From the NCBI GenBank assembly GCA_030651765.1, contig JAUSBY010000012.1:62001-126000 (forward strand): DNA of 64,000 nucleotides. Reading direction: 5' to 3'. Origin of the DNA: Coriobacteriia bacterium. Lineage in GTDB: Bacteria > Actinomycetota > Coriobacteriia > Anaerosomatales > Anaerosomataceae. The notes beneath the pieces were generated by a model that worked only from the letters and a program-made list of their open reading frames with translations, was not told the origin of the DNA and did no database searches. Position numbers and translations under genes: made by a program. This document shows positions 4,615-20,333 of the stretch, in pieces; position 1 is the first letter of the stretch, and the number at the start of each line of letters is the position of its first letter.

Positions 4615-5667
4615 TCAGCGTCCCGGTGATGTGACGAACCACAGGGCGAAGCCGGCGCCGGCCATGATCCCGGTCACGATCCAGAACCGGACCATGACCT
4701 TGGTCTCGCTCCAGCCCTTCATCTCGAAGTGGTGGTGCAGCGGCGCCATCCTGAAGATGCGCTTCCCGGTGAGCTTGAACGACGCCACCTGGAGGATCAC
4801 CGAGAGCCCCTCGGCCACGTAGATGCCTCCGATGAGCGGTGCAAGGAGCTCGGTCTTCGTGACGACGGCCATGGTTGCGATGGCCGCACCGAGACCGAGC
4901 GAACCGGTGTCGCCCATGAAGATATCTGCCGGGTGGCTGTTGTACCAGAGGAACCCCAGACATGCACCCGCTACCGACGAAGCAAGGAGTGCGAGCTCGA
5001 GATTGTCCTGCATGAACGCGATCGCGGCGAACGCCAGCATGACGATCATGACGGTACCGGCCGCCAGACCGTCGAGCCCGTCGGTCAGGTTCACCGTGTT
5101 CGAGAACGAGATGACCATGAAGAACACGAGCGCTATGTACAGCCACGGAAGCGTGATCGTGAAACTGCCGACCACGAGGGTCGACGAGAGCGCGCCCAGA
5201 TCGAGCATGCCGCCCCACGGAACCACGACCTCCGGACTCACGTGCGCCCAATTGACCGCGAGCACACCGATAGCGAATGCGATGAGCGCCTGACCGGCGA
5301 TCTTCGCCTTCGGCTTGAGCCCGAGCGAGCGCTCATGGACGACCTTGGCGTAGTCGTCGATGAAGCCGAGCAGCCCGCAGCCGAGTAGCCCCACGAGCGC
5401 GATGATCCCCGGTCGTCCGACCTCACCGAGTGAGAGGTAGACGGTGGCCACTACGAGCAGGATGAGCACCCCGCCCATCGTCGGAGTCCCCTGCTTGACG
5501 AGATGACCATGTGGGCCGTCCGCACGAACCTGCTGGCCTATGTTGCGGAACCGCAGCACGCGGATCCACAGCGGGAACAGCGCACCCGCCAGCACGAGCG
5601 CGAGCACTGCGGCGACGAACACCTGGTAGGTGGGGTACCGCCCTATGTCAGGCAGAAGGTTGAACAC
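4615..5667 (-). CDS. mraY: Phospho-N-acetylmuramoyl-pentapeptide transferase MraY
   Basis: Polytopic transferase moving phospho-MurNAc-pentapeptide to undecaprenyl phosphate to give lipid I. It is 350 aa with about ten hydrophobic helices. Diagnostic motifs are QGTPTMGG near the N-terminus, FIDDYAK followed by LGLKPKAKI, NLTDGLDGLA, FMGDTGSLGLG and HHHFEMKGWSE near the C-terminus. The GTG start lies 20 bp inside murF, so the two are coupled. Confidence 0.97.
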   Translation of the reverse strand: MFNLLPDIGRYPTYQVFVAAVLALVLAGALFPLWIRVLRFRNIGQQVRADGPHGHLVKQGTPTMGGVLILLVVATVYLSLGEVGRPGIIALVGLLGCGLLGFIDDYAKVVHERSLGLKPKAKIAGQALIAFAIGVLAVNWAHVSPEVVVPWGGMLDLGALSSTLVVGSFTITLPWLYIALVFFMVISFSNTVNLTDGLDGLAAGTVMIVMLAFAAIAFMQDNLELALLASSVAGACLGFLWYNSHPADIFMGDTGSLGLGAAIATMAVVTKTELLAPLIGGIYVAEGLSVILQVASFKLTGKRIFRMAPLHHHFEMKGWSETKVMVRFWIVTGIMAGAGFALWFVTSPGR

Positions 5668-8572: not shown

Positions 8573-10333
8573 TCAGCCGTCATCCGACTGTGACCCTTCC
8601 GTGACCGGCCGTCCGGGCGGCACCTTCAGGTGCTCCACCGCAAATGCCGCCACCCGGCTGAAGACCGGCGCCGCCACCGTACCGCCGTAGATCGAGCCCG
8701 ACGGCTCATCGATGTTCACGATGATCAGAACCCTCGGGTCATCGGCCGGCAGGAACCCCGAGAATGACGCCACGTACTTGCCTTGGGCGTAGCCGGGGCG
8801 CCCATCGGTCCTGGCCTTCTGCGCGGTGCCGGTCTTGCCCGCCACGCTGTAGCCGGCCACCGCGGCAGCCGAGCCGGTCCCGTCGGCGACCACGTCCGCC
8901 AGGACGCTCCGCATCTGAGCCGCGGTGCCTTCGGCGATGGCCCGCTCCTTAGGCCACGACAGCGCCAGCTCCGGCGTATCGGGAACGTCTCTGAGAAAGT
9001 GCGGCGTCACGAGTTCGCCCCCGTTGGCGATCGCGGCGAGTGCACGCGCAAGCTGTAGCGGCGTGACCGAGATGCCCTGTCCGAACGGGATCGTGGCGAC
9101 CGATGAGGCGGACCAGGTCTCGACGGGCGGAAGCGCCCCGCGCACCTCTCCGGGATAGTCCACCCCGGTCTTCTCGGTAAGCCCGAAGCGCGAGAAGTAG
9201 TCGTAGAGCCCCTGCTCGCCGAGGGCCTGACCCAGCTTGACCGAACCGACGTTGGAGGACTTGGTGACGATCTCGGTGAGCGACCAGTTCGCGGTCGGCC
9301 GCGGGTGCGCCTCGCCGATCGTGCGGCCGCCGACTCTGATGGAAGGCGGCAACTCGAACATGCTATCCGGCGTGAAGAGTCCGGCATCGATAACCGCAGC
9401 CGCGGTGAGCGACTTGATCGTCGACCCCGGCTCGTAGGTGTCCACGATGGGCCGGTTCCGGTACGACGCCGAGTCGGCCTCCCCGAACCGGTTGGGATTG
9501 TACTGCGGCACCGACGCCATAGCGAGGATCTCACCGTTGGTGGGGTCCATGACGACGATGGAGCCTGCCGCGGCTCCCCACGTCTCGACCGCCTCGGCGA
9601 GCGCCACCTGCGCCTGATACTGGATGTCCTTATCGATGGTCAGGACCACGTCCTTGCCATCGATAGCCTCCTCCTCGAACGCTACGCCTCCGGGGATGGG
9701 TCTCCCCTGACGGTCGCGCTCGCCGATGAGGGCACCGGGCTCGCCTGCCAACAGGTCGTCGTAGTAGAGCTCCAGGCCCGAGAGGCCCTGATCGTCGATG
9801 CCCACGAACCCGAGCACCTGACACCCGAGCTCGTTGCTCGGGTAGACGCGCCTGGAGTCATCATGGAAGCCGAGGCCCGTCAAGCCGAGCGCCTCAAGCT
9901 CGGCGGCACGCGCAGGGTCGGCCTTGCGAGCCACGTACGTGTAGGTACCCTCGCCGCTGATTCGCTCGAGATAGTCGGCGTAGTCGCCGCCGAGTGTGTC
10001 GGCGATCGCGCGCGCGGTCGCTTCCTTGTCCGTGATCACCGCTGGCACCGCATACACGGTGCGCGCAGGGATGGTCTCGGCCATGACCTCGCCCTCGCGA
10101 TCGAGGATGAAGCCGCGCTCGGGGTTGAGGGTGACCTCGCGGGTCCGCTGCTCGGCTGCGGCCTCGGCATACTGCGGACCTTCGATGACCTGTATGCGCA
10201 CGAGCTGACCGGTCACGGCCAGCAGGCCCACGGCCAGCACGACCAGCAACAATGAGAAACGCCCGGTCGGGGCCGAGCGCCTGGGTGCGGCCGGGTCGGA
10301 GCTTCCACTCCGATCTCGCCGGGAACCGCTCAT
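8573..10333 (-). CDS. ftsI: Division-specific D,D-transpeptidase FtsI (class B PBP)
   Basis: Septal peptidoglycan transpeptidase working with FtsW. It is 586 aa: cytoplasmic tail, one membrane anchor (about residues 26-46), PBP dimerisation domain containing the RGFILDREG stretch (73-81), then the transpeptidase domain. Catalytic motifs are STIK (304-307, acyl-enzyme Ser304), the SSN in TKSSNVGSVK, and KTGTAQK. No PASTA repeats follow the catalytic domain. ATG overlaps the stop of the upstream FtsL-like gene (ATGA). Confidence 0.96.
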   Translation of the reverse strand: MSGSRRDRSGSSDPAAPRRSAPTGRFSLLLVVLAVGLLAVTGQLVRIQVIEGPQYAEAAAEQRTREVTLNPERGFILDREGEVMAETIPARTVYAVPAVITDKEATARAIADTLGGDYADYLERISGEGTYTYVARKADPARAAELEALGLTGLGFHDDSRRVYPSNELGCQVLGFVGIDDQGLSGLELYYDDLLAGEPGALIGERDRQGRPIPGGVAFEEEAIDGKDVVLTIDKDIQYQAQVALAEAVETWGAAAGSIVVMDPTNGEILAMASVPQYNPNRFGEADSASYRNRPIVDTYEPGSTIKSLTAAAVIDAGLFTPDSMFELPPSIRVGGRTIGEAHPRPTANWSLTEIVTKSSNVGSVKLGQALGEQGLYDYFSRFGLTEKTGVDYPGEVRGALPPVETWSASSVATIPFGQGISVTPLQLARALAAIANGGELVTPHFLRDVPDTPELALSWPKERAIAEGTAAQMRSVLADVVADGTGSAAAVAGYSVAGKTGTAQKARTDGRPGYAQGKYVASFSGFLPADDPRVLIIVNIDEPSGSIYGGTVAAPVFSRVAAFAVEHLKVPPGRPVTEGSQSDDG

Positions 10334-10884
10334 CGTCCGAGACCAAGACCCATGTCGCCGACGAGCAGGACCTGCGCCTCACCAGCGGCCAAGTCGACCA
10401 GGGTGGCAAGCACGCGCGAGACGGCCCCGCCCCCTGACTCGTCGGCACTGTCCGCGAGCAGCGCCCCGGACGCGGGCGCCGTGTCGTCGTCATCGCCCAC
10501 TCCGCTCGTGGAATCGGGCAGTTCGAGGTAGCAGACCTCGGCCGGACGGTTCATGTTCAGCGTCTCGCACGCGAGAACCTCGATGCGCGAAGGTGCCGCA
10601 AGCGAGCCACGATCGGCCTCCAGACCACGCGTCTGCAGGCGCGCGGTCTTCAGCTCGCTCCTGAGTTCCCACGCGTCCACGGAAGCCTCTGCTGCCTGGG
10701 CGGCGAGCGCGACGCGGGCGACACCCGCACTCGCGAGGATCAGGAAGCACACGATGGCGATGCGGAAGGCGCTCGCTGCGGTCGCCGAGCGCGCGCGCGT
10801 GCGCCGACCACCCGCCGGGACGAGCCACAGCGAGGGCCGCACCGGTGCGGCTGTATGCGCGAGTCTGCGTGCCGCTGCGCCCAC
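10330..10884 (-). CDS. ftsL: FtsL-like bitopic division protein
   Basis: Probable FtsL: a small bitopic protein of the FtsQBL complex that activates FtsWI. It is 184 aa: a basic cytoplasmic N-terminus, one transmembrane helix (about 40-62), then a short extracytoplasmic heptad-like stretch (ELRSELKTARLQTRGLEADR) and a Pro/Asp/Ser-rich tail. Sequence is poorly conserved in this family, so the call rests on topology and on its place between rsmH and ftsI. The GTG start has AAGGAGG 9 nt upstream. The tail is longer than in most FtsL and ends with a second hydrophobic patch. Confidence 0.75.
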   Translation of the reverse strand: MGAAARRLAHTAAPVRPSLWLVPAGGRRTRARSATAASAFRIAIVCFLILASAGVARVALAAQAAEASVDAWELRSELKTARLQTRGLEADRGSLAAPSRIEVLACETLNMNRPAEVCYLELPDSTSGVGDDDDTAPASGALLADSADESGGGAVSRVLATLVDLAAGEAQVLLVGDMGLGLGR

Positions 10885-11899: not shown

Positions 11900-12334
11900 C
11901 TAGAGGATGCCGAGTTCGGCGAGCTCGCTCGTCACTTCCTCGATCCGGGCTTCGGTCTCACCGTTGTACGCAGCCCACGTGGCCGCATCCCAGAGTTCGA
12001 TGCGATCCCCGTTGCCGATGACGGCGACATCGCGGTCAAGCTTCGCGTACTCCCGCAAGACCACCGGGATACCCATACGCCCCGCCGTGTCGAGCTGATC
12101 CTCTTTGGCCCCTGCGGTGAAGAAGCGGCGAACCTGGCGGAACTTCGGATCGAAGTCGCCCTTCTCGGTAAGTTGCTTCAGGAACCGCGCGTAGTCCTCT
12201 GACGAGAAGACGTACAGACACCCCTCGAGACCCTTCGCCACGACGAGGCTGCCCGTCATTTCGCTGCGGAACTTGGCAGGCAGCGATAGGCGCCCCTTGG
12301 CATCCAGCGTGTGCTGGTACTCGCCGAGAAACAT
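11900..12334 (-). CDS. mraZ: Transcriptional regulator / cell-division protein MraZ
   Basis: First gene of the dcw cluster. MraZ is a DNA-binding protein with two AbrB-like SpoVT domains that represses its own operon in several bacteria. It is 144 aa, typical. MFLGEYQHTLDAKGRLSLP at the N-terminus and the second repeat around DTAGRMGIPVVLREY are the two DXXGR-type motifs. The start is fixed by homology and by GGGAGGGGATGGG directly before the ATG; the frame is open for 17 more codons without homology. Direct repeats and a promoter lie about 60-110 bp upstream. Confidence 0.95.
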   Translation of the reverse strand: MFLGEYQHTLDAKGRLSLPAKFRSEMTGSLVVAKGLEGCLYVFSSEDYARFLKQLTEKGDFDPKFRQVRRFFTAGAKEDQLDTAGRMGIPVVLREYAKLDRDVAVIGNGDRIELWDAATWAAYNGETEARIEEVTSELAELGIL

Positions 12335-12391
12335 CCCATCCCCTCCCACTCTCGCTCCTCGGGGCGACCCCACGGGCCCCCGCATGTCACA

Positions 12392-12420
12392 ACTCTATGA
12401 CACACTATCCCACTTTGCAA
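12392..12420 (-). promoter_or_regulatory. Promoter of the mraZ/dcw operon
   Basis: Read on the minus strand: -35 TTGCAA (12415-12420), an exact 17-bp spacer, and -10 TAGAGT (12392-12397). Each hexamer matches 4 of 6 consensus positions. The predicted transcript starts near 12385, about 50 nt before the mraZ ATG. The region is noticeably more AT-rich than its surroundings. Confidence 0.55.
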
Positions 12421-12446
12421 CACTTTTTGGGCTGTTGCCCCACTTC
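12411..12446 (-). promoter_or_regulatory. MraZ-box-like direct repeats (autoregulatory operator)
   Basis: Three copies of AAAGTG/GAAGTG on the minus strand: GCAAAGTGGGA (CACTTT at 12411), AAAAAGTG (CACTTT at 12421) and GAAGTGGGG (CACTTC at 12441). Offsets are 10 and 20 bp, so all lie on one helix face. MraZ is known to bind runs of short GTGG-type direct repeats with 10-bp periodicity upstream of its own gene. The repeat set overlaps the -35 hexamer, which fits repression. Binding is inferred. Confidence 0.6.
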
Positions 12447-12647
12447 TGCAGCACCCGGTGCCACACGCTCCCCCGGGTGGGGACACATCGCGGCGCCGGG
12501 CAGAGGCCATCCCGGGGGTCGGCGAGGTCCGCCGCACCAGCGGAACCGCGTCTGAACCCGGCGCGGCCGGGTCCCGTCATAGGGACGACAGGCAGGAATC
12601 GGACCCTGACAGTGGAAGAACGCTCATGACGGCCTCAACCGGTGTGG

Positions 12648-12676
12648 TTGCCCGCCCGGCATGGCCACGGTAGAAT
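12648..12676 (+). promoter_or_regulatory. Promoter for the plus-strand 52-aa membrane protein
   Basis: -35 TTGCCC (12648-12653), 17-bp spacer, -10 TAGAAT (12671-12676; 5 of 6 to consensus). Transcription would begin near 12683, leaving a leader of about 35 nt with GGAGG at 12700-12704 before the ATG at 12717. Confidence 0.6.
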
Positions 12677-12716
12677 CGTCACCAGTGCGTGGCTACAGTG
12701 GAGGTGAGCAGCCCCT

Positions 12717-12875
12717 ATGTACGGATGGTTCCTTCTCGGAAACAACGTCGCCGGCATCATGTTCAACATGCTCGTGGTCGTCTTCTTCGCCGTCATCGCG
12801 ATCTCGATCGGATTCCTCGTCTACGCTGCCAAGCAGCTGAAGAAGGCCGAGGAGACGATGAAGAAGGCGGAGTAG
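12717..12875 (+). CDS. Small single-pass membrane protein, 52 aa, function unknown
   Basis: The product is 52 aa. A short N-terminal stretch (MYGWFLLGNNVAG) is followed by one long hydrophobic helix (about residues 14-37) and a charged, probably helical C-terminus rich in Lys/Glu (KQLKKAEETMKKAE). It has its own promoter and a GGAGG sequence 12 nt upstream. The coding frame has the strong G/C third-position bias of its neighbours, so I consider it real. No family is recognised. The charged amphipathic tail would be cytoplasmic by the positive-inside rule. It is divergent from mraZ and upstream of a DUF4349 lipoprotein. Confidence 0.75.
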   Translation: MYGWFLLGNNVAGIMFNMLVVVFFAVIAISIGFLVYAAKQLKKAEETMKKAE

Positions 12876-12911
12876 CCGCCCCCGAGAGTCTTAACCGCTG
12901 TCACGACCGAG

Positions 12912-12945
12912 CGTCCCGAGCCTGTCACGTCAGGCATGCGGGGCG
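12912..12945 (+). terminator. Hairpin downstream of the 52-aa gene
   Basis: Imperfect stem-loop: outer arms CGTCCCG/CGGGGCG (one G-U pair), an internal loop, then GCCTG/CAGGC around TCACGT. It lies 37 bp after the small gene's stop and 44 bp before the next start. There is no T-run, so it may be a weak terminator or an RNA-processing structure. Confidence 0.35.
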
Positions 12946-12988
12946 TTCGTGCTTACCAGGGCATGTGCGCCGGAAGGAGGGCACGGAG

Positions 12989-14002
12989 ATGAGCACCCAC
13001 CGCCGCGCTACGGGAGTCACGATCGTCGCTGTCGCTGTGGCACTCGCGCTCGCAGGCCTCACGGCTGGCTGCGGGGTCGTCGGCACTGCCACCGACGAGT
13101 ACCGGGGAGGGAGCGAGCCCGGTTACGCTCCGGTCGCCGCGCCCGAAGAGAGCGTCTCCTCCGACGGAGAGTTGGCCTATGACGAGAGTACGGGCGTCAA
13201 GGGCGACGTTGCCACAGGCGTGGCCGAGACGGACCGGCTGATCATCCGATCGAAGACCGTTCGCCTCGAGGTCGAGAGTACGACCGATGCGGTGGACGAG
13301 ATCCGGGTCCTGGCGCGGGCGAACGACGCGATCATCACCGGCCTCCAGGTAGCCACTGACACCGAGGGGCCGATCTACCGCTACGACGCGCAGGGTTACT
13401 CGGTCGGCGATGGCATTGGCCTTCGCGGCTGGGTGACCGTCCGCGTTCCGGCAGCGAGCTTCGAGGCGTTCGTCGAGAAGGTGGCAGAACTCGGCACCGT
13501 CAAGTATCAGGCCGAGGATGCCGAGGACGTCACGCAGCAGCATGTCGACCTCTCGGCACGGCTCGAGAACCTGCGCGCCGAGGAGGCGCGGTTGCGCGAG
13601 TTCTTCGATGCGGCGACCAAGGTCGAGGAGATGCTCTCCATCGAGCGCGAGCTCGCCCGGGTACGAGGGGACATCGAGAGCCTCGACGCCCAGGTCACCT
13701 ACCTCGAGCGACAGGCCGCCATGGCGACCGTCACGATCGAGCTGACCGAACCGCAGCCGATCGTCCGGCCCGACGGTGACACCTGGGGCTTCAGCGAGGC
13801 GATCACCTCCGGCATCAGGGGTGCAGCCAACGTGGTCACGTTCGGCATCGCGCTGCTGATCGCCACCGCGCCCCTGTGGCTCATCGCCCTGATCGCGTTC
13901 TTCATCATCCGCGCCATCATCCGGCGCAGGCACCGCGTGCAGACGCCGCCATCCGAGACCGGGAGCGCGGCCGACGACGTCACACGCGATTCCGGAGCCT
14001 GA
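12989..14002 (+). CDS. DUF4349 domain lipoprotein with C-terminal membrane helix
   Basis: Envelope lipoprotein of unknown function, 337 aa. A signal peptide ends in a lipobox (LTAG-C, Cys28). An Asp/Glu-rich linker leads to the DUF4349 core (about 75-280): two beta-rich halves (RSKTVRLEVES, GWVTVRVPAASFEAF) flank a coiled coil (residues about 180-240, DLSARLENLRAEEARLREF and LSIERELARVRGDIESLD). A C-terminal membrane helix (about 283-311) and a basic tail follow. The ATG is set by AAGGAGGG and the lipoprotein signal; the frame continues upstream without homology. DUF4349 proteins are widespread but uncharacterised. Confidence 0.88.
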   Translation: MSTHRRATGVTIVAVAVALALAGLTAGCGVVGTATDEYRGGSEPGYAPVAAPEESVSSDGELAYDESTGVKGDVATGVAETDRLIIRSKTVRLEVESTTDAVDEIRVLARANDAIITGLQVATDTEGPIYRYDAQGYSVGDGIGLRGWVTVRVPAASFEAFVEKVAELGTVKYQAEDAEDVTQQHVDLSARLENLRAEEARLREFFDAATKVEEMLSIERELARVRGDIESLDAQVTYLERQAAMATVTIELTEPQPIVRPDGDTWGFSEAITSGIRGAANVVTFGIALLIATAPLWLIALIAFFIIRAIIRRRHRVQTPPSETGSAADDVTRDSGA

Positions 14003-14005
14003 GGG

Positions 14006-14266
14006 GTGCTGCGCCCCCGAATCCGCCTACCACTCGTCGCGGCGGCCGGGATTCCGGCCGCCGCGTACGCACTCCGCAGTCTGATTCGCGGCAGTCTCGC
14101 CCCGGACATGCCGGGCGATGCCGTCGTCTTCGGCCTGGTGGCCGTCGCGCTACTCCTGGGCGCTCGCTACGGTTCGGCCGCGCAACGCCGCCGCGACGAG
14201 CTGTCCGCTCAGATGGCCGACCGCCACGCCGACACCGGCGAGGACCGGAAACACGACGAGGTCTGA
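14006..14266 (+). CDS. Small putative membrane protein, 86 aa
   Basis: GTG start 3 bp after the DUF4349 stop. Two short hydrophobic segments (about residues 8-22 and 38-52) precede a strongly charged tail (QRRRDELSAQMADRHADTGE). It may be the third gene of the plus-strand unit, although I see no strong ribosome-binding site. Its last 117 bp overlap a minus-strand ORF that also looks coding, so one of the two may be spurious. No family recognised. Confidence 0.45.
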   Translation: MLRPRIRLPLVAAAGIPAAAYALRSLIRGSLAPDMPGDAVVFGLVAVALLLGARYGSAAQRRRDELSAQMADRHADTGEDRKHDEV

Positions 14267-14425
14267 GACCGGATCGAGCCCCTCGATCCCCGGCGCACCG
14301 CTTCCGCCGACGAGCGTCAGCCAGCCGCCGAGCGCCACACCGATCATGACACCGACGCCCCACGTGAGCGACCAGAAGAGCGCCTGCCCCGCACGTAGAC
14401 GCCCTCCTTCAGGAGCGATGAGCAC
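14150..14425 (-). CDS. Small putative membrane protein, 91 aa, downstream of ABC permease
   Basis: GTG start 4 bp after the stop of the upstream permease. Two hydrophobic helices are visible (about residues 15-38, with WSLTWGVGVMIGVALGGW, and 55-82). It could be an accessory membrane protein terminating the BMP transporter operon, but no family is recognised. It overlaps the convergent 86-aa frame by 117 bp. An ATG further upstream in the same frame lies inside the permease gene. Confidence 0.45.
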   Translation of the reverse strand: MLIAPEGGRLRAGQALFWSLTWGVGVMIGVALGGWLTLVGGSGAPGIEGLDPVSDLVVFPVLAGVGVAVGHLSGQLVAAALRGRTVASAQE

Positions 14426-14429
14426 GGTC

Positions 14430-15383
14430 CTAGCCCTTCTTATAGGGTTCGCCAACTGCGGCAGGTGCGACCGCGCGGCCGATGACGCCAGCAAGCACGA
14501 CGACAGTGAGCACGTAGGGAAGCATGAGGAAGAACTGTGGCGGCACCGTGATCACGTCGCGAAGGATCTGCAACTTGATCTGGAGCGCATCGGCAAAGCC
14601 GAAGAGCAGCGACGCCAGGTACGAGCCTACCGGCGTCCAGCGGCCGAAGATGTTGGCCGCCAGAGCGATGAATCCCCGCCCGTTCGTCATGTTCTCGGTG
14701 AACGAACCGACCTGCTCGATCGTCAGGTTGGCCCCTGCCAGGCCGGCAAGCGCACCACTCATCAGCACGGCGACCCATCGGCCCCGATAGACGCTGACGC
14801 CGACGGTGTCAACCGCGCGAGGATGCTCGCCGAGTGCCCTCAGGTGCAGTCCCCACTTGGTGCGGTACATCGCCCACTGCGCGACCACGGCGATGATGAT
14901 CGTGATGTACACGATCGGCGTGTGCGAGAACACGATCCCGTTGACCCAGCGCCACGCCTCGGCAAGGAAGCCCCCCCCTGGCGAACTGAAGGAGAAGATC
15001 GGCCGGAGTACCTGGATCGAAGCCGTCGTTCCCGGGTGTCCGTACCACAGCTCCATCAGGAAGCCGGTCACGCCAAGCGCGAGCAGGTTGATCGCGGTGC
15101 CGGAGACCACCTGGTCGGCACGCAGGTTCACGGAGGCGAATGCGTGGATGGCCGAGATGGCGACACCCGCGAGCATCGCCGCTCCGACACCGATCCAGGG
15201 GTTACCGGTCGCGAGCACGGCCGCCGTGCCAAAGAAGGCGCCGGTGAGCATGATTCCCTCGAGGGCGATGTTGACAACGCCCGAGCGCTCGCACAGTGTC
15301 CCACCGATCGCCGCAAGCGCAAGCGGCGTGGCCATCCTGAGGGCGGATGCGAAGAGATCAGGCGTGATGATGTCACCCAGCAT
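14430..15383 (-). CDS. BMP-family ABC transporter permease (NupQ/YufQ type)
   Basis: Second permease of the importer, 317 aa, BPD_transp_2 family. The N-terminus carries LAAIGGTLCERSGVVNIALEG, the conserved motif of this permease class, followed by about eight hydrophobic helices. It pairs with the adjacent larger permease, the ATPase and the BMP lipoprotein; relatives transport nucleosides. The start overlaps the preceding gene by 11 bp. Confidence 0.9.
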   Translation of the reverse strand: MLGDIITPDLFASALRMATPLALAAIGGTLCERSGVVNIALEGIMLTGAFFGTAAVLATGNPWIGVGAAMLAGVAISAIHAFASVNLRADQVVSGTAINLLALGVTGFLMELWYGHPGTTASIQVLRPIFSFSSPGGGFLAEAWRWVNGIVFSHTPIVYITIIIAVVAQWAMYRTKWGLHLRALGEHPRAVDTVGVSVYRGRWVAVLMSGALAGLAGANLTIEQVGSFTENMTNGRGFIALAANIFGRWTPVGSYLASLLFGFADALQIKLQILRDVITVPPQFFLMLPYVLTVVVLAGVIGRAVAPAAVGEPYKKG

Positions 15384-19427: not shown

Positions 19428-20333
19428 CTAGCGCAGACGGGCCCGCGGATGCGTGGTCATGTACTCTTCGCGCACGTGGGTGCGGTCCACGTGCGTATAC
19501 ACCTGCGTCGTGGAGATGTCGGCATGGCCGAGCATCTCCTGCAAGGCGCGCAACTCGGCTCCGCCCTGCAGCATATGTGTGGCGAACGAGTGCCGAAGCG
19601 TGTGCGGATGAAGATCGAGACCGACGCGGCCTCCGTACGTGCGGACGATCGCGAAGACGGCCTGACGCGTGAGGCGTCCGCCCCGCACGTTCACGAACGT
19701 CGCCGACGGATCCTGGCGCGCGCTCGACTTCTTCGCTCTGAGGAACGGTCGTCCGTGCTCGAGATAACCGCGCAACGCCTCGGCGGCCACAGTGCCCACC
19801 GGCACCAGCCGCTCCTTGTCACCCTTGCCGCGTACACGTACGTAGCCGGCGTCAAGGTCGGCGTCAAGCATGTCGAGTGCCGTCAGTTCGCTCACGCGTA
19901 GACCGCAGCCGTACAGCACCTCAAGCGCGGCGCGGTCCCGGTAGCCCACCGGGCCTTCGGGGAACGGCTGGGAGAGTAGGCGCTCCGCGTCTTCGATGGA
20001 GATGACCTCCGGAAGACGCTCGGGAACCTTCGGCAGCGCGAGATCGAGCGTAGGGTGGTTTCCGGTCAGACCCTCGCGAACAAGAAAGGCGTGGAAACTC
20101 TTGACGGCCGCGACCTTGCGCTCGACCGTACTCGGAGCCATGCCCTGTTCCTGAAGACCGCGGACGAACGCGATGACGTCATCCCGGCTGGCGTCGAGCG
20201 GTTTCGCGTGCCTGGCCGACAGATGCCTGAGGTACGCGCGAAGGTCGCCACCGTACGCGCTGATGGTGTGTACCGACGCCCCGCGCTCCACGGCGAGATA
20301 GCCCAAGAAGTCCTCTACGAGTTGTTCACCCAT
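19428..20333 (-). CDS. xerD: Site-specific tyrosine recombinase XerD
   Basis: Tyrosine recombinase resolving chromosome dimers at dif; 301 aa. An N-terminal SAM-like core-binding domain (about 1-90) precedes the catalytic domain with GCGLRVSELTALD (first Arg), KGDKERLVPVG, HTLRHSFATHML (His-x-x-Arg) and LGHADISTTQVYTHVD (His and nucleophilic Tyr). Chromosomal context without phage genes supports a housekeeping role. XerD versus XerC is judged from the close-to-XerD motifs and the pyrG neighbourhood. Confidence 0.93.
   Translation of the reverse strand: MGEQLVEDFLGYLAVERGASVHTISAYGGDLRAYLRHLSARHAKPLDASRDDVIAFVRGLQEQGMAPSTVERKVAAVKSFHAFLVREGLTGNHPTLDLALPKVPERLPEVISIEDAERLLSQPFPEGPVGYRDRAALEVLYGCGLRVSELTALDMLDADLDAGYVRVRGKGDKERLVPVGTVAAEALRGYLEHGRPFLRAKKSSARQDPSATFVNVRGGRLTRQAVFAIVRTYGGRVGLDLHPHTLRHSFATHMLQGGAELRALQEMLGHADISTTQVYTHVDRTHVREEYMTTHPRARLR

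Follow-up and report, generated by a model that had tools for sequence, protein, structure and literature searches.

A small single-pass membrane protein encoded beside mraZ in Anaerosomatales and related families of the Coriobacteriia

Introduction

Several described small membrane proteins invite comparison with the gene considered here. FtsL and DivIC have an N-in/C-out topology and carry an extracytoplasmic coiled coil, while TatA/TatE are small N-out proteins in which a single membrane helix and a charged cytoplasmic helix are separated by a hinge. In Streptomyces, SCO2097 is a membrane protein whose gene lies close to that end of the dcw cluster which carries mraZ. This protein, a member of family DUF3040, is listed as a small protein that is "part of spore wall-synthesising complex" (PMC4255298). 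SepG, also termed YlmG and belonging to the YggT family, is described as a small dcw-encoded membrane protein that coordinates division in Streptomyces, with two membrane segments and a gene situated between sepF and divIVA (PMC4852450).

The window studied here, a stretch of 64,000 nucleotides from an assembly of 2.26 Mb that represents a member of the Anaerosomatales (Coriobacteriia), contains a short open reading frame back-to-back with mraZ. For the protein that it specifies we use the name SMP. No description of the gene was found in the literature as far as titles and the opening parts of abstracts reveal, and the family has no name in Pfam or NCBIfam.

Results

Coding Capacity of the Small Open Reading Frame

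The SMP reading frame (12717-12875, forward strand) starts with ATG at 12717, ends with a TAG stop codon at 12873-12875 and yields a 52-residue protein, MYGWFLLGNNVAGIMFNMLVVVFFAVIAISIGFLVYAAKQLKKAEETMKKAE. The G/C bias in third codon positions pointed out in the initial annotation is pronounced, with GC3 at 0.90 vs. 0.50 for GC1 and 0.27 for GC2. When the 19-residue hydropathy maximum was determined for all frames in the 64-kb window that comprise 40-70 codons and have GGAGG 5-13 nt before the start, SMP alone exceeded 1.8 (2.82), the runner-up at position 4615 reaching 1.73.

The SMP frame is subject to purifying selection. Comparison of the window with locus L033 resulted in a pN/pS of 0.26 (pS 0.40, pN 0.10; Nei-Gojobori) as opposed to 0.88 and 5.67 in the remaining two frames, and the congeneric sequence L032 differs from the window by one synonymous and no non-synonymous change within the gene. 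Equally low ratios were obtained for other close pairs (L064/L067 0.10, L058/L059 0.11, L065/L066 0.13), while among the distant pairs listed the values mostly lie between 0.4 and 0.9 and in some cases exceed 1 (L035/L045 1.40), which we attribute to saturation. Conservation in relatives and absence of in-frame stop codons had been proposed beforehand as tests, and neither told against the gene: no stop occurs within the SMP frames of the relatives, a TAA flagged in G032 being the gene's own stop. The small single-pass protein postulated in the initial annotation is thus borne out by family-wide conservation, low pN/pS and one main predicted helix, and we regard SMP as a real, conserved protein-coding gene with near certainty.

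The reading frame of the downstream gene, which codes for a DUF4349 lipoprotein, is open from GTG 12689 through 14002 on the forward strand and spans all of SMP in another frame, such that an automatic caller could produce a false 437-residue protein from 12689-14002 (+). In six comparisons pN/pS ranged from 0.26 to 0.56 in the SMP frame and from 1.18 to 5.67 in the DUF4349 frame, and therefore the small frame rather than an extended DUF4349 frame is the selected reading in this region. The true DUF4349 start is likely ATG 12989, which is preceded by a AAGGAGGG site. The gene had been called easily missed by gene finders. This is plausible insofar as the overlapping open frame could mask it; on the other hand, a frame of 52 codons with a perfect Shine-Dalgarno sequence is within the reach of common gene finders. 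SMP illustrates that in a GC-rich genome a conserved small gene can be concealed by another open frame that overlaps it.

Promoter and Upstream Elements

A promoter with 17-bp spacing had been proposed for SMP and was located on the forward strand as TTGCCC (12648-12653), a 17-nt spacer and TAGAAT (12671-12676). It is the sole sigma-70-like site that a scan of 12300-14500 found, the mean for shuffled sequences being 0.2. The pattern TTG[CTA]-17/18-TA[GC]AAT is present upstream of SMP in 52 of the 53 relatives, the exception, L068, being without the first hexamer. The Shine-Dalgarno sequence, likewise noticed earlier, reads GGAGGTGA (12700-12707, +); GGAGG is found in 53/53 relatives, a count that is not independent because SMP starts were picked partly by that motif. 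Upstream of the promoter lies a further conserved block, (C)TTGACAGYGGAA (12606-12617, +), some form of which was recovered with a loose pattern in 41 of the 53 relatives, including at least one doubtful case (L051), at a variable distance of about 60-95 nt upstream of the -10 hexamer. A regulon defined by this block was considered and rejected, the pattern YTGACAGYGRAA having just two copies in the genome and none in a reversed control. The promoter string GTTGCCCG-N15-17-TAGAATC occurs once in the genome, upstream of SMP itself.

More than 200 nt separate the SMP promoter from the mraZ promoter region. On the reverse strand, at about 12405-12443, there are TGGG-type repeats with a resemblance to MraZ boxes, 71-109 nt ahead of the mraZ start. 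They overlap a promoter-like pair, TTGCAA-N17-TAGAGT, that was read by eye, and some 200 nt lie between them and the SMP promoter.

Gene Neighborhood

The divergent neighbor of SMP is mraZ (11900-12334, reverse strand; TIGR00242, PF02381), the first gene of the dcw cluster. In the typical locus, ftsI-ftsL-rsmH-mraZ on the reverse strand are followed on the forward strand by SMP, the DUF4349 gene and a gene for an 86-residue protein, and then by two permease genes (-, PF02653). MraZ is encoded in all 53 first-round loci, with L080 and L083 also retaining the typical order, and in six of seven further loci of the order, the exception (L157) beginning at a contig start. Synteny with mraZ, proposed in the initial annotation as a check, is supported by these loci.

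The DUF4349 protein (12989-14002, +; PF14257, E 1.1e-51) has a lipobox and a C-terminal membrane segment discernible by eye. In one published study a DUF4349 protein with a predicted lipobox figures among several candidates for tail-anchored Tat substrates. The third gene (14006-14266, +) encodes a predicted membrane protein of 86 residues without a Pfam match and was matched at this position in the majority of loci. On the forward strand, a scan of the 113-nt gap between SMP and the DUF4349 gene revealed neither promoter-like nor terminator-like sites. The DUF4349 gene is part of the SMP locus in 52 of the 53 relatives, L077, which is truncated by a contig end, being the exception. It was also found in 7/7 further loci of the order, and in L068 (genome G031) the order is swapped, with the DUF4349 gene between mraZ and SMP. 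In the Anaerosomatales, SMP probably heads an operon with the DUF4349 lipoprotein gene, of which the gene for the 86-residue protein is likely the third member.

Spearman coefficients for pairwise distances amounted to 0.45 for SMP and MraZ, 0.46 for MraZ and RsmH, 0.31 for SMP and RsmH and 0.26 for SMP and the DUF4349 protein. These values are compatible with vertical descent and give no sign of a special co-evolution of SMP with the DUF4349 protein.

Distribution of SMP

A search with the single sequence at E up to 10 gave SMP matches in 56 of 61 genomes. A homolog is present in 53 of the 54 non-self loci; the match in L085 sits inside a larger frame, is spurious and was excluded. Profile A1 consists of 49 rows, i.e., the window, which replaces L032, and 48 of the 53 relatives, L048, L052, L054 and L058 having been dropped as near-duplicates. 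Among 296 genomes of the class, it gave matches with E values no higher than 8.1e-15 in 61 of the 69 genomes belonging to the order. The eight genomes of the order without a profile match (G020, G022, G034, G036, G040, G041, G047 and G124) comprise one in which the contig is cut inside SMP (G036), six in which the region is cut or neither neighbor was found, and one possible absence (G040). MraZ was found in three of the eight (G020, G036, G040) and DUF4349 likewise in three (G020, G022, G040), in each case at or near a contig end, and both were undetected at E up to 0.001 in G034, G041, G047 and G124. The contig of G036 still includes the conserved promoter and GGAGGTGA and breaks off right behind ATGACTC, and therefore SMP begins there. 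In the 99%-complete genome G040 the profile detected no SMP, and the 418 nt beside mraZ are without the SMP promoter; instead, another frame, which includes a hydrophobic stretch, opens beside mraZ and runs off the contig (L163, positions 1-418). A real loss, a replacement or a relocation of SMP is possible in this case.

Outside the order, SMP was encountered in 12 genomes of families f17, f20 and f21 of the same class (profile E 2.8e-11 to 5.9e-6), while G079 (f20) and G081 (f21) were without a strong match among the rows listed. These 12 proteins are longer and have a K/A-rich cytoplasmic tail. Homology of the two subfamilies is supported by profile-profile comparison (hhalign 98.0%, E 1.8e-13); nine of the 12 outside members are included in alignment A2 and 11 in a second alignment of 64 rows that was reduced to 55 non-redundant sequences. 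In all 12 outside loci SMP is located upstream of mraZ at a distance of 182-509 nt, in five of them divergently (L144, L147, L148, L153, L154) and in seven co-directionally (L145, L146, L149, L150, L151, L152, L155), and in none is the DUF4349 gene beside SMP. DUF4349 was undetected at E up to 0.001 in ten of the 12 genomes and present in the other two. On the far side, as inspected in five outside loci, SMP is adjoined by a gene for a XerD-like recombinase (L147, L152, L153), an O-antigen-ligase-like gene (L145) or an ABC permease gene (L149). Since a tyrosine-recombinase gene is also present in the window (19428-20333), part of a wider gene order may be ancestral. The constant feature of SMP loci is adjacency to mraZ, under changing flanks and orientation. 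Such conserved adjacency, taken as the mark of a dcw- or division-linked protein, was found with G040 as the exception.

No SMP homolog was detected in 30 mraZ loci from families f18, f19 and f22-f25 and from other classes (best E 0.66), which were scanned whole and represent part of a set of 34 genomes with a detected MraZ; 29 of the 30 include no less than 600 nt on the upstream side of mraZ. Strong matches among 246 genomes sampled from the phylum were confined to the genome of the window and three others of its family. The best match outside the class (3.6e-4) lies inside a 426-codon frame and was judged a chance match. None of 47 pattern matches in viral contigs encodes an SMP relative. 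In these samples, the family is confined to part of one class. Because no homolog was detected in those 30 mraZ loci and no strong match was seen outside the class, SMP does not belong to the core division proteins.

A different small single-helix protein is encoded between mraZ and rsmH in two other actinobacterial families (L176, 842-1000, +; L191, 697-813, -). As judged by eye, these two proteins resemble each other.

Predicted Structure and Conserved Residues

The AF2 model of SMP features a helix comprising residues 11-51, with block-mean pLDDT values of 93-98 over residues 11-50, and a shorter, less certain helix at residues 3-9. With 52 residues, a hydropathy maximum of 2.82 and this model, SMP falls into the class of small bitopic membrane proteins (up to about 60-100 residues with one hydrophobic helix). 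For the longer protein of L145, helices were predicted at residues 2-20, 22-56 and 63-87 with lower confidence (mean 77.7). Across 55 non-redundant sequences, the most constant residues are N10 (54), Y/F36 (55), A37 (55), A38 (53), K42 (54) and E45 (51), the last five giving a conserved cytoplasmic-junction motif, Y/F-A-A-x3-K-x2-E, followed by a lysine-rich tail. Lysine and arginine are absent before the helix in 54 of the 55 sequences, and at least three such residues follow it in all 55, a charge distribution from which an N-out/C-in topology is predicted. The initial annotation had described a membrane helix with an amphipathic charged tail. Single-pass helix and charged tail agree with our results; with regard to amphipathicity, helical periodicity of conservation at 100 degrees over residues 13-35 was not significant, as 530 of 5000 shuffles were equal or better.

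Database Searches

Pfam, NCBIfam and PHROGs yielded just weak, scattered matches to SMP. Model NF042931 touches 25 of the 49 members with a best E of 4.1e-4 and was rejected: the window protein reaches 18.6 bits vs. a cut-off of 80, and the matches are taken for membrane-helix similarity. No PDB sequence matched at E up to 1, and Rfam gave a single match with E 0.98, far below the gathering score.

Discussion

Our preferred, albeit tentative, interpretation is that SMP acts in the division/peptidoglycan machinery as a lineage-specific accessory or assembly factor, the process being suggested by gene position. This interpretation draws on constant residues at both membrane faces, the deep co-location with mraZ and the gene's own promoter. 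In mechanistic terms, SMP would be expressed from this promoter as a small bitopic protein of the cytoplasmic membrane, with a short extracytoplasmic N-terminus that carries the conserved Asn10 and a single helix predicted to continue into the cytoplasm, where the conserved junction and the lysine-rich tail would follow. The helix may pack against a larger membrane protein, a partner that we infer, and the basic tail may contact a cytosolic partner or anionic lipid. A link to division or envelope biogenesis had been suggested in the initial annotation on account of the back-to-back arrangement with mraZ. The suggestion has gained strength inasmuch as the adjacency outlasts changes of the other neighbor and of orientation, and it continues to derive from position; gene neighborhoods can persist without functional linkage, which counts against it. 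Further points on the opposing side are the more than 200 nt between the SMP promoter and the mraZ promoter region, the 99%-complete genome G040 with another sequence beside mraZ, the restriction of detected homologs to part of the class, and conservation that marks no significant helical face.

Other explanations have to be weighed against this assignment. That SMP is a chance open reading frame in a promoter or leader region and not a protein is improbable in the extreme, since the protein is conserved across the family, its own frame shows the low pN/pS, the Shine-Dalgarno sequence is conserved and Rfam offers no match of weight, even if the frame is short and the DUF4349 frame stays open over it from GTG 12689. 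It is possible, if somewhat doubtful, that SMP and the DUF4349 lipoprotein are partners, perhaps together with the 86-residue protein, in an envelope complex unrelated to division, with SMP as the small membrane component and mraZ as no more than a stable neighbor. The presence of the lipoprotein gene in nearly all loci of the relatives and in every later locus of the order, the persistence of the gene pair in L068 despite the swapped order, and a gap in which no promoter-like or terminator-like sites were detected on the forward strand are in line with such a partnership, which is opposed by the 12 outside loci without an adjacent DUF4349 gene, ten of them in genomes in which none was found, and by SMP distances that track those of the DUF4349 protein less well than those of MraZ.

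A position of purely historical origin would apply if SMP regulated another membrane protein, i.e., a transporter, a sensor kinase or a protease substrate, in an MgrB-like manner. We consider this equally possible but doubtful: the place beside mraZ is deeply conserved despite changing orientation and flanks and no target is indicated, although several characterized small membrane proteins work in this way, the tail varies in length and sequence as in adaptors, and SMP has its own promoter. Still less credible is a role in which the basic tail is the working part and SMP serves as a membrane tether for the nucleoid, ribosomes or FtsZ, the short Anaerosomatales form being reduced. The K/A-rich tails of the outside families, the separate tail helix 63-87 predicted by AF2 with moderate confidence for L145 and the XerD-like recombinase gene next to SMP in L147, L152 and L153 would fit such a tether; however, members from the order of the window have only a short tail, the constant residues concentrate in and just after the helix and not in the tail, and basic K/A tails are common in proteins. 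Returning to a division factor specific for lineages of the Coriobacteriia, one may speculate that a minimal anchor beside mraZ is combined in some families with a cytoplasmic tail that forms a long, basic arm for binding the nucleoid or FtsZ, whereas in the Anaerosomatales, with their very thin cells, partnership with the DUF4349 lipoprotein takes the place of this arm, a scenario that we deem improbable. Cultured Anaerosomatales rods are only 0.12-0.2 µm wide (PMC9686372).

If the link to division holds true, the dcw neighborhood of an actinomycetotal order known mostly from MAGs conceals a division/envelope factor without a name in Pfam or NCBIfam, and SMP would constitute a defined deletion target in cultured Anaerosomatales strains.

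Comparison with Known Systems

SMP shares with FtsL and DivIC small size, a single membrane pass and linkage to dcw, whereas its topology, as predicted from lysine and arginine charges, is opposite. Each FtsL model matched at most one of the 49 SMP members (best E 0.041), and a separate FtsL-like protein is encoded in the window at 10330-10884, identified by weak matches that stay below the cut-off. TatA/TatE resemble SMP as small N-out proteins with a membrane helix and a charged cytoplasmic part but differ in that the predicted helix 11-51 of SMP is continuous and without a hinge; TatA/TatE are not among the 25 families listed, out of 48, in the family comparison of the 49 members at E up to 1. 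The same list contains neither DUF3040 nor YggT. SCO2097 is a small protein like SMP, yet with 135 residues belongs to a different family, and SepG/YlmG is distinguished by its two membrane segments from SMP with one main helix. SepG and SCO2097, neither of which showed homology to SMP in these comparisons, are precedents for small dcw-linked membrane proteins in the Actinomycetota.
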